From Collinsella sp. An7 (GTDB taxonomy: Bacteria > Actinomycetota > Coriobacteriia > Coriobacteriales > Coriobacteriaceae), in NCBI RefSeq assembly GCF_002159335.1, contig NZ_NFHP01000005.1:124001-188000 (forward strand): DNA of 64,000 bases. The letters run 5' to 3'. How positions within the stretch are numbered: the first letter of the stretch is position 1; each line of letters starts with the position of its first letter. The notes under the pieces were generated by a model. That model made no database searches, was not told the DNA's origin, and saw only the letters and a program-made list of their open reading frames with translations. Below, piece after piece: positions 3,971 through 64,000 of this stretch. The position numbers and the translations under genes were made by a program.

Positions 3971-5093
3971 AGACGAGGCACTCCAACTCGTCGGCCAAGC
4001 GCTCGGCTGCCTGTGCCTGCCCGAGCCCGGCGGACGCCTCGCGCATCCGTGCCCGGCGCGCCGGGTCGCGCAAAAGCCCCAAGAGCTCATCGGCAAACGC
4101 CGGAGAATCGATATCGGCGTCGGCAAACATCACCGCTGCGCCGGCATCCACCAGCGTGTGGGCATTGGTGGTTTGATGGTCGGCCGTGGCAAAGGGGTAC
4201 GGCACGAGCACGGCCGGCACGGCAAGCGCCGCAATCTCGGCGATGGAGGAGGCACCGGCGCGCGACAGCACGAGGTCGGCCGCGGCGAGCACGTCCCCCA
4301 TATCGTCGATATAGCCCTGCACGCGGTAGCGCGCCGCCTCCGTGGGCGTGAGCGCGAGCGCCTCGCGCGTAGCCTCGAGGTCATCGGCACCCGTAGCGTG
4401 GAGCACATGCAGCCCCGGGATCGCCAGCAGGTCGCGCTTGAGCGAGGCCATGCGCGTGTTGAGGTGATGCGCCCCGAGCGAGCCACCAAAGACCACAAGG
4501 AGCGTGCCGTCCTCGGGCACCGCGAGCGCCGTGCGGCCGCGCACGCGACTCCCCTCGAGCACCTGACGGCGCACGGGATTCCCCGTAAAGTGGATAACCC
4601 CCTCGCGCGCACCCGCGCGGCGGAAGACATCGGCCACACTCGGGTGCCCGATGGCGATGAGCGCGGCATCGCGCGCCGACTGCTTGTTGGCGAGCCCCGG
4701 CACAGAGTTCTGCTCGTGGAGGGCGATAGGAATCTTAAGGCGCTTAGCCGCACGCAAAAGCGGCAACTCCACGTACGCGCCAAAGCCGATGGCCACGTCG
4801 GGCTTGAGGGCGGGCTCGGCGCGGAACGCCCGAGCGATGCGGCGCTCCTCGTGCGCAAGGTGGCCGAGCGCCGTGACGAGCGTCCAGGGGTGCTGCCGGT
4901 CAAAGCCCGTCACGTTTACGGGGAAGAAGTCAAAGCCCGCCTCGGGGACGAGCCGCCCCTCGAGACGACGCTCCTCGCCAAAGAACCGAACCTCGTGGCC
5001 CCGGTCGCGCAGACACTCGGCAAGCGCGAGGGCCGGGTTGACATGCCCGGCGGTGCCACCCGCCGCAATCGCGATCCGCATCCTATCTGCCAT
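3969..5093 (-). CDS. murG: UDP-GlcNAc:undecaprenyl-PP-MurNAc-pentapeptide GlcNAc transferase
   Basis: 374 aa, the usual length. MurG converts lipid I to lipid II at the cytoplasmic membrane face. The N-terminal GT-B motif GGTAGHVNPALALAE, the interdomain GGSLGAHHLN and the donor-site SRAGASSIAEIAAL followed by ADHQTTNA are all present. The chosen start is the ATG at 5093 with AAGGAG 5 nt upstream; it overlaps the ftsW stop (5083) by 11 nt, implying translational coupling. It is the last gene of the dcw operon in this window; a GGGGAC palindrome covers its stop codon. Confidence 0.95.
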   Translation of the reverse strand: MADRMRIAIAAGGTAGHVNPALALAECLRDRGHEVRFFGEERRLEGRLVPEAGFDFFPVNVTGFDRQHPWTLVTALGHLAHEERRIARAFRAEPALKPDVAIGFGAYVELPLLRAAKRLKIPIALHEQNSVPGLANKQSARDAALIAIGHPSVADVFRRAGAREGVIHFTGNPVRRQVLEGSRVRGRTALAVPEDGTLLVVFGGSLGAHHLNTRMASLKRDLLAIPGLHVLHATGADDLEATREALALTPTEAARYRVQGYIDDMGDVLAAADLVLSRAGASSIAEIAALAVPAVLVPYPFATADHQTTNAHTLVDAGAAVMFADADIDSPAFADELLGLLRDPARRARMREASAGLGQAQAAERLADELECLV

Positions 5094-6885
5094 CTCGACT
5101 CCTTCCGCGCGGCCCGCGCCCGCGCGAGCCATACCCGCTCCCCGAGTCACCCGGGTACGCGTCGCGCGTGCGCAGGCGCTCCGCCGGGTCGTAGTCCAAG
5201 TTTATACGGTCGTAGCCGCCCGAGGGAGCTGAGCGCCCCGCAAGCCACGCATCGGCCGCACCGCGCCCGGCATCCGCCTCTGCGCGCGTCCCCCGTGCGC
5301 GACGGGTACCGCTCAGGGGAGCCGAACCGCCGGGTCGCGCAGCGCCGGTGTAGCCACCGGCCGCGCCGGCCCCGGGGGCCGCGCCCGAGGCACCCGCGCC
5401 GTCCACCACGGTAAAGCCCGAGCGCCGGCCAGTGCGCACGTGCACCGATCCCGCCGTGGTCTCGGACGGGTTAACGGCGTAGCCGCCCTGCGGAGCGCCC
5501 TCGGCACCCCACAGGTCGCCACCCGCCGCGCGCGCAGCACCCCCCTCGCCCACCACGGCCATCCGCGACCGGCGCTCGTCGTGCACCGTGCGCTGGTTGC
5601 TCTCGAGCGACACGCGCATCACGAGCCCCGCCACGCCGAGCATGGCGATCATCGACGACCCGCCGTACGAGATAAAGGGCATGGTCTTGCCCGTCATGGG
5701 TGTGACTCCCAGAATGCCGAGGGCGTTGACCAAAAACTGCAGCATGATGAGCACGCCGCACCCGTAGGCGATGAGCCGTCCCTGCACCGTGGGAGACTGC
5801 GACGCAATCTTAAAGATCGACCACACCATAAGCGCATACACGGCAAAGAAGATGAGCATCCCCACAAAGCCCAGCTCCTCGCCGATGATGGCGAGGATGT
5901 AGTCGTTATGGGCCTCGGGGAGGTAGTTGTACTTCATGGTGGAGTTGCCGATACCCCGGCCAAAGAGCCCGCCCGAAGCAAACGCCATGATGGCGAGCAC
6001 GGCCTGGTAGCCCGTATCGTACGGGTCGGCCCACGGGTCGGAGGACATGCGCGCCATGCGGTAGTCGGCCGTAACGATAAAGATCGCCGTCGCCGCCAGG
6101 CCCACGCCCAGCACCGCGAGGATCACCTTGTACGAGAAGCCCGCAAAAAAGCACATGGCAAAGACGGTGCCCGCGATGATGAGGCAGCTGCCGAGGTCGG
6201 GCTCGGCGATGATGAGCACAAGCGGCAGTGCCACGCAGGCACCGAGCATGACGATGAAGGTCGCGGTGTCGATGGCCTCCATCTCGTAGTACTCGTGGAA
6301 GATCTTGGCCGCGGTGACGATAACAACCGGTTTGACAAACTCCGAGGGTTGGAGCTGCTGGCCGGCGATGACGATCCAACGCGTGGCGCCGCCGTGCTCC
6401 TCGCCCACCACAAGCACGGCGAGCAGGAGCAGAAGCGAGCAGCCCCAGATGACCCACATGGCGCTGGAGCGCATGAACTCGAGCGGCACGCCCACGCTCA
6501 CCACCACCATGAGCACGAGTCCCACCCCGATGAACATCGCCTGGCGCGTGAGGAAGTACGTGGAGCTCTCGTACTCCTTGAGGGCCTCCACTGCCGAGGC
6601 TGAGTAGACCATCAGAAGGCCAAACGCGAGGATCGCCACGAGCGTGACGATAAAGATGAGGCGCGGGCGCATGATGCGCGCGGGCACGCCGGCGATGAGC
6701 TGCTCGCCGAGCGAGGAGTGCTCGCCTGCACGGTCGCGCCGGCGCGAGAAGAGCCGGCGCACACCGCCGCGCTCAGACGCCGCAGCGCTCGCCTCGCCCT
6801 CGCCGGCTGCACGCCGGCCCCGCTGCGTTGTCTCGGGTGCGCCCGCGGGAGCCATACCCGCGTCGCGCCGGTACTCGCCCGCCAT
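5083..6885 (-). CDS. ftsW: FtsW/RodA/SpoVE family peptidoglycan glycosyltransferase
   Basis: 600 aa SEDS protein that polymerises lipid II at the septum with its partner PBP. About ten membrane helices span roughly residues 75-430, with the family's RWI..GQQLQPSEFVK and GLFGRGIGNSTMKYNYLPEAHNDYI motifs and a terminal FISYGGSSM motif. Unusual are a basic, low-complexity N-terminus of about 70 residues and a C-terminal cytosolic tail of about 170 residues rich in Gly, Ala, Arg and Ser. The catalytic core alone would be about 370 aa. It sits between murD and murG; ftsW and murG overlap. Confidence 0.93.
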   Translation of the reverse strand: MAGEYRRDAGMAPAGAPETTQRGRRAAGEGEASAAASERGGVRRLFSRRRDRAGEHSSLGEQLIAGVPARIMRPRLIFIVTLVAILAFGLLMVYSASAVEALKEYESSTYFLTRQAMFIGVGLVLMVVVSVGVPLEFMRSSAMWVIWGCSLLLLLAVLVVGEEHGGATRWIVIAGQQLQPSEFVKPVVIVTAAKIFHEYYEMEAIDTATFIVMLGACVALPLVLIIAEPDLGSCLIIAGTVFAMCFFAGFSYKVILAVLGVGLAATAIFIVTADYRMARMSSDPWADPYDTGYQAVLAIMAFASGGLFGRGIGNSTMKYNYLPEAHNDYILAIIGEELGFVGMLIFFAVYALMVWSIFKIASQSPTVQGRLIAYGCGVLIMLQFLVNALGILGVTPMTGKTMPFISYGGSSMIAMLGVAGLVMRVSLESNQRTVHDERRSRMAVVGEGGAARAAGGDLWGAEGAPQGGYAVNPSETTAGSVHVRTGRRSGFTVVDGAGASGAAPGAGAAGGYTGAARPGGSAPLSGTRRARGTRAEADAGRGAADAWLAGRSAPSGGYDRINLDYDPAERLRTRDAYPGDSGSGYGSRGRGPRGRSRDGR

Positions 6886-62525: not shown

Positions 62526-62586
62526 GGGCGCAGAGCGCAGCGCTGTCGCATGCCGGCCGCCCTTACAACAGGCCCCACCTAAAGGA

Positions 62587-62655
62587 AATGCGGTTCATCC
62601 ATCTAAACGGCAAAAATCAGCCCCGATTTTGCCGTTCAGGTGGGCGAACCGCATT
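62587..62655. repeat. Inverted repeat after the exporter gene
   Basis: AATGCGGTTC (62587-62596) and GAACCGCATT (62646-62655) close a structure that also pairs ACGGCAAAA with TTTTGCCGT near the loop; about four mismatches in 31-bp arms. The T-run after the inner stem makes terminator function possible. Confidence 0.7.
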
Positions 62656-62816
62656 CTGAAAACACGAAAGTGGCCCCTTAACCACGAAAATGATTTGCTG
62701 CAGTGGGTCATCTTTCCGTTGCCGTCGGCGGCACCCCTTGCAAACTTTGTCCGCACAGTCTGGCACAATGGATAAGCTGACGCTTCGCCGGCAGCCAGCA
62801 ACTTGGAGGAGGGACT

Positions 62817-64000
62817 ATGGCCCAATCTGCACACCGCTTCTCTCGCAAAGAGCTTGTCCGTCTTCTTGATGGCACCATAGGCCACACGCTTGGAGAAATT
62901 GACTCGGCCAACGTGCTCGGACGCTCCGAGCGCAACAAAGGAAATGCCGGAGCCGTCTTCGAGCAGAGCGTGCTCGGGTACCCGGCAGACTCAGATAAGC
63001 GCCCCGACCTCATCGTCGACGGCGTACCCACCGAGCTCAAGGTGACCGGTCTCGTCGCATCTCCCAAAAGCAGCCGCGGATGGCGCGCGAAGGAGCCGAT
63101 GTCTATCACCGCAGTCACCCCCGACGACATCGTTAAAGAGGAGTTCTTCACCTCGGCATTTTGGGAGAAGGCCGAGCACCTACTCATCGTGTATTACCTC
63201 TATGTTCGCCCTGGCAAAGGGATATAGTTTGCCCAGTACGCCACGTTTGAGGTCAAAGGATACGACTTTCACATCTGGAGCGAGCTTGACGTGAAGCGAC
63301 TTAAGGCGGACTGGACGCTCGTACGCGACTTTGTCGACTTCGCCCTCAAGCAAAATCGCGAACGGTGGCTCCCGGAGCTTTCGAGCCTCATCAACCGCGA
63401 GCTACTTTACCTTGACACCTCACCCAAGTATCCCAATCCTCCGCGTTTTCGCTTCAAGAACTCGTTCGTGACGGCCATCGCCGAAGAGCATTTTGGCACC
63501 GCGGGAATCGACGCTACTGCCATCACTTCGATGAAGGATATCGACAATCACCTCGCCACCTGTCGAGAGCGATTTGCCTGGAAGACCATCGCTCAAATCG
63601 CAGAGGCCCTTGGACTCAAGCTCGCGCAAGGAAAACCGGCAAAATCGCTCACCGAGCAGGCGATTGTCCAGATGCTCACGGGGCATCCAGGAAAGCTCCG
63701 AAACGTCGAACTGTTTACCAAGGCGTCCATCACGTGCTCCTCGGTGACCATCACCACTTCCGGAAAACGCACCGAGGACATGAAGGTGGAACCTTCACTC
63801 GACTTCGACGACCTGCTCGATCCGGAAGCCTCCTTCGAGGATTCCACACTCGCTTCCCAGTTTATCGGGACCTCTATCATCTGCGCCGTCTTTGAGGAGT
63901 CGCCGCATGAGACCGACCGCATGAACAATCGCTTCCTCGGATTCAAGCGTCTCTGGCTCGGCGAGCTTTCTCAAGATGCCCAACGCCTCTGGGAAACCAT
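62817..64000 (+). pseudogene. Sau3AI/MutH-family type II restriction endonuclease, interrupted by an in-frame amber codon, 3' end outside the window
   Basis: The ATG at 62817 (after GGAGGAGGG) begins 136 codons ending at TAG (63225-63227). The same frame then stays open to the last base, about 257 more codons. The first part has a MutH/Sau3AI catalytic core: NKGNAGAVFEQSVLGY (Glu49), RPDL (Asp64) and PTELKVT (Glu73, Lys75). The second part starts FAQYATFEVKGYDFHIWSE and continues with the family's C-terminal signatures IAQIAEALGL and KLRNVELFTKASIT. So one nonsense change, or readthrough, splits a single gene. Recognition is probably GATC-like by family. GC is lower than in the neighbours, suggesting transfer. 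The partner methyltransferase is not in the window. Confidence 0.82.

Follow-up and report, generated by a model that had tools for sequence, protein, structure and literature searches.

A recent nonsense substitution probably interrupts the endonuclease gene of a MutH/Sau3AI-type restriction-modification locus in Collinsella sp. An7

In Collinsella sp. An7, a gut-type actinobacterium of the order Coriobacteriales, the reading frame of a restriction endonuclease is open on both sides of a single in-frame TAG codon, which raises the question of whether the amber codon is a fresh nonsense mutation, a sequencing error or a site of programmed or suppressed readthrough, the three explanations offered by the original prediction. 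The window (the whole stretch of 64,000 nucleotides that was analysed) covers positions 124001-188000 of contig C14 in a 2.37-Mb genome of 18 contigs. The frame opens at ATG 62817, is interrupted at 63225-63227 and then stays open, without a change of frame, as far as the window end, beyond which the contig carries its TAA terminator 265 bases further on (L002 2817-4265). It comprises 482 codon positions (1,446 bp) including the amber codon, which is codon 137. The features concerned are as follows.

62805-62816, forward strand: strong Shine-Dalgarno-like stretch GGAGGAGGGACT, read directly in the sequence and abutting ATG 62817
62817-63227, forward strand: N-terminal piece (136 aa) of a MutH/Sau3AI-family restriction endonuclease, bearing E49, D64, E73 and K75 and ending at the amber codon
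63225-63227, forward strand: in-frame TAG, aligned with AAG (Lys) in the nearest relative and with Thr, Thr, Pro and Glu codons in four other homologues
63228-64000, forward strand: same-frame continuation of the endonuclease, comprising the remainder of the first MutH core and then a second MutH-like domain

The proposed membership of the Sau3AI/MutH family was borne out on both sides of the stop. The N-terminal piece alone matches PF02976 (MutH) at 8e-14 and NF040973 (Sau3AI) at 2e-23, and the post-stop piece alone matches NF040973 at 1e-14 and the PADLOC REase_II profile PDLC03570 at 1e-41; because both match the family independently, the continuation of the frame is not a chance occurrence. 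The PF02976 score of 51.7 bits (cut-off 23) marks a MutH nuclease domain, and PF02976 has no second match in the genome. The catalytic residues E49, D64, E73 and K75 (E...D...ExK) of this domain are invariant across eight sequences. The C-terminal part of a sequence profile matches the structures 2reu, 7xm0 and MutH 2aoq, which include the solved C-terminal domain of Sau3AI, indicating a second MutH-like domain that lies wholly beyond the stop. Translated across the stop, but with its C-terminus cut off by the window end, the endonuclease scores 143 bits against NF040973, short of the equivalog cut-off of 300 bits, so that by its profile scores it is a distant branch of the Sau3AI family and not Sau3AI proper; an intact, full-length relative from Candidatus Coprousia avicola also falls below the cut-off, at 153 bits. 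A second, longer type of MutH-related protein (∼860-950 aa), 22-27% identical to the An7 endonuclease, is widespread in the family (L011-L015, L017-L020, L022, L024-L026 and L028) and is absent from the An7 genome.

A methyltransferase gene, sought within the 2 kb that follow, was found immediately outside the window, 3′ of the endonuclease and on the same strand (L002 4399-5664). It is intact and of the cytosine-C5 type (421 aa; PF00145, 1e-52), starting with GTG at 4399 behind AGGAG, ending with TAG at 5664 and encoding all of the motifs ELFAG, PCQ, ENV and QRRKR. A homologue of this methyltransferase adjoins the endonuclease in 9/9 relatives tested. The pair is flanked upstream by what is presumably a YeiH-like membrane protein gene and downstream by a presumed 2′-5′ RNA ligase-like gene (names given from reading the gene sequences by eye), as in Ca. 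Coprousia avicola. To judge from this gene content, this is an ordinary type II restriction-modification locus of the MutH/Sau3AI kind, carried on the chromosome. By analogy, the pairing of a Sau3AI-like nuclease with an m5C methyltransferase suggests GATC as the target; in this region GATC occurs at 0.72 of the frequency expected from a Markov model, which is no more than suggestive. The endonuclease segment (62817-64000) has 57% G+C compared with 66% for the window, suggesting acquisition from an outside source at some time before An7 and Ca. Coprousia avicola diverged. The interval that separates the YeiH-like gene from the endonuclease contains, at 62580-62662, a very stable imperfect hairpin with a stem of ∼28 bp (shuffle z -6.5), parts of which are matched at three more places in the same genome (∼30 bp at 85-90%) and which has no match in eight other genomes of the genus; it may be either a terminator or a small repeat element.

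The nearest relative, Ca. Coprousia avicola (L003/G048, DVMF01000068.1), encodes an intact endonuclease of 492 aa that is 66% identical to that of An7, together with a methyltransferase at the same place that is 76% identical. In this relative the lysine codon aligned with the amber codon is one substitution away from TAG. Since the residues aligned in the other four homologues differ and are surrounded by gaps, the alignment places the amber codon in a variable loop. A search of 395 genomes of the order gave matches at E ≤ 1e-15 in 11, An7 included, and an internal stop is found in An7 alone. Homologues on plasmids share no more than 40% identity and shed no light on the stop; no further copies were found in viral contigs. 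The disruption is thus private to the An7 lineage, with an intact orthologue elsewhere, as in a recent pseudogene.

It could be supposed that the amber codon limits the amount of a dangerous nuclease by programmed or suppressed readthrough, acting as a regulatory brake through which low natural readthrough yields enough full-length endonuclease while limiting self-damage. The frame beyond the stop is indeed intact and still looks constrained. However, the stop is absent from all other homologues, so that its position lacks the conservation that programmed readthrough would be expected to show, and the decoding machinery argues against suppression. None of the 48 tRNAs found in the genome has a CUA anticodon, searches of the genome gave no match to PylB and only a weak, sub-cut-off match to PylS (28.6 versus 178 bits, in a 590-residue frame), and RF1 is present above its cut-off; a suppressor tRNA, pyrrolysine decoding and loss of RF1 are thereby ruled out. 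TAG is moreover the commonest stop codon of the genome, terminating 51/94 (∼54%) of the gene-like ORFs called by a rough gene caller in a 144-kb sample, so that a general suppressor would elongate about half of all proteins. The base following the TAG is U, and a U at this position is generally reported to form a strong termination context. RNA folding around the stop is close to that of shuffled sequences (z -1.26), which rules out a special RNA structure there. Readthrough, whether as a suppression event or as a brake, is therefore contradicted on several counts and is regarded as very improbable.

The prevalence of TAG recurs in most relatives sampled, in DNA of 63-68% G+C (10/12 in L100), although the sample, consisting of the window and L093-L096 from the An7 genome and L097-L105 from other genomes of the order, is small and was analysed with the rough gene caller. 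TAG usage in bacteria has been reviewed as low (∼20%) and unresponsive to G+C content (PMC9348620); the preference seen here may characterise the order as a whole.

The original prediction also pointed out that a truncated product would keep the E-D-ExK residues. This is correct as far as E49, D64, E73 and K75 are concerned, but a usable small nuclease is improbable, as the amber codon corresponds to position 75-76 of the 103 that make up the MutH core, in what we take, from strand assignment by eye, to be the loop after the YYLYV strand. Lost with the truncation are the next core strand and helix, the whole second domain and a segment containing the invariant residues P209, R210, R212 and K214. 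That segment may contact DNA, by its presumed equivalence to the C-terminal portion of MutH, which bears Tyr212, a residue shown to be important (PMC3848065). Given these losses a working nuclease is unlikely, and the broken domain is probably inactive, to go by the position of the stop. The two pieces might nevertheless reassemble as a split endonuclease, or gain a new role, if the C-terminal piece were restarted separately, for which GTG 63291, with GGAG 10 nt upstream, offers a possible start. This codon is ATC in Ca. Coprousia avicola and is hence a plain valine codon rather than a retained start, which rules out a conserved internal restart, and the break lies inside the folded core, between two neighbouring strands; a split enzyme is accordingly considered highly unlikely.

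Plain decay was looked for by alignment. The remaining 345 codons contain no second stop and no frameshift, which rules it out and agrees with the prediction of a single amber codon as the only disruption. Had the post-stop part evolved neutrally for the whole branch since the split from the relative, ∼12-30 stops would be expected in it, assuming 0.3-0.75 substitutions per site. The absence of a second stop, together with the undamaged frame, indicates that the change is young; on this reckoning the post-stop part would have been unconstrained for at most ∼10-26% of the branch time, or never. Of the columns that do not vary among the five other sequences, An7 retains 43/44 before the stop and 71/75 after it, and the intact relative, used as a control, retains about as many. 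Lineage-specific residue changes number 29 in An7 and 25 in the relative after the stop, and 6 and 11, respectively, before it, a relative excess of post-stop changes in the direction expected under relaxed constraint that is not significant (Fisher p = 0.27). Synonymous sites are saturated in the homologue comparison.

The same absence of damage over 1,446 bp, with most of the conserved post-stop residues kept, bears on a further explanation, namely that a base-calling, assembly or strain-mixture error conceals a sense codon and that the endonuclease of the actual cell works. One stop without decay is the pattern that a consensus error would give, and the species is represented by one genome. 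Against this, the change is a substitution, as opposed to a homopolymer indel, the contiguous assembly has a completeness of 99.7% and a contamination of 0.1%, and loss of the nuclease half of restriction-modification pairs is a common and ordinary event in reality. Substitution errors are rare in a finished consensus. In a resequencing study cited in PMC3488263, 109/138 genes suspected of frameshifts or stops proved to be intact, which favours an error. A consensus error ranks second among the explanations, as an unlikely one that nevertheless retains some weight, and a fresh nonsense mutation fits best of the three originally offered. The locus is thus, with good though not complete confidence, taken to carry a real and recent nonsense substitution that leaves it methyltransferase-plus and nuclease-minus.

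Under a real nonsense substitution, translation would begin normally and halt at codon 137, in a loop that joins two strands of the core, giving a 136-residue fragment that lacks the rest of the nuclease core and the second domain and in all likelihood is neither stable nor active. Methylation by the intact methyltransferase would continue, rendering the cell modification-plus and restriction-minus, a harmless state that selection would be slow to remove. The locus would then represent a snapshot of a restriction-modification system that is losing its cutting half first and leaving a lone methyltransferase, with little reach beyond this strain. It is predicted that An7 should accept unmethylated GATC DNA. 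Automatic annotation may split the locus into two gene pieces.

Like members of the Sau3AI family (PF02976/NF040973; PDB 4pxg, 2reu and 7xm0), the An7 endonuclease combines a MutH-type core carrying E...D...ExK with a second MutH-like C-terminal domain and has an m5C methyltransferase as its neighbour, but unlike them it is interrupted by an amber codon. The Ca. Coprousia avicola locus has the same gene order, with the endonuclease gene unbroken. Systems of this type are known to lose their nuclease half (compare PMC9465063 and PMC3488263). In Mycoplasma agalactiae, hsdR is disrupted by a premature stop, so that there, as in An7, a single early event has broken the nuclease gene while the neighbouring methyltransferase gene is intact; the two cases differ in that the Mycoplasma system is of type I and was broken by an indel in a repeat tract, whereas that of An7 is of type II and carries a substitution (PMC9465063).
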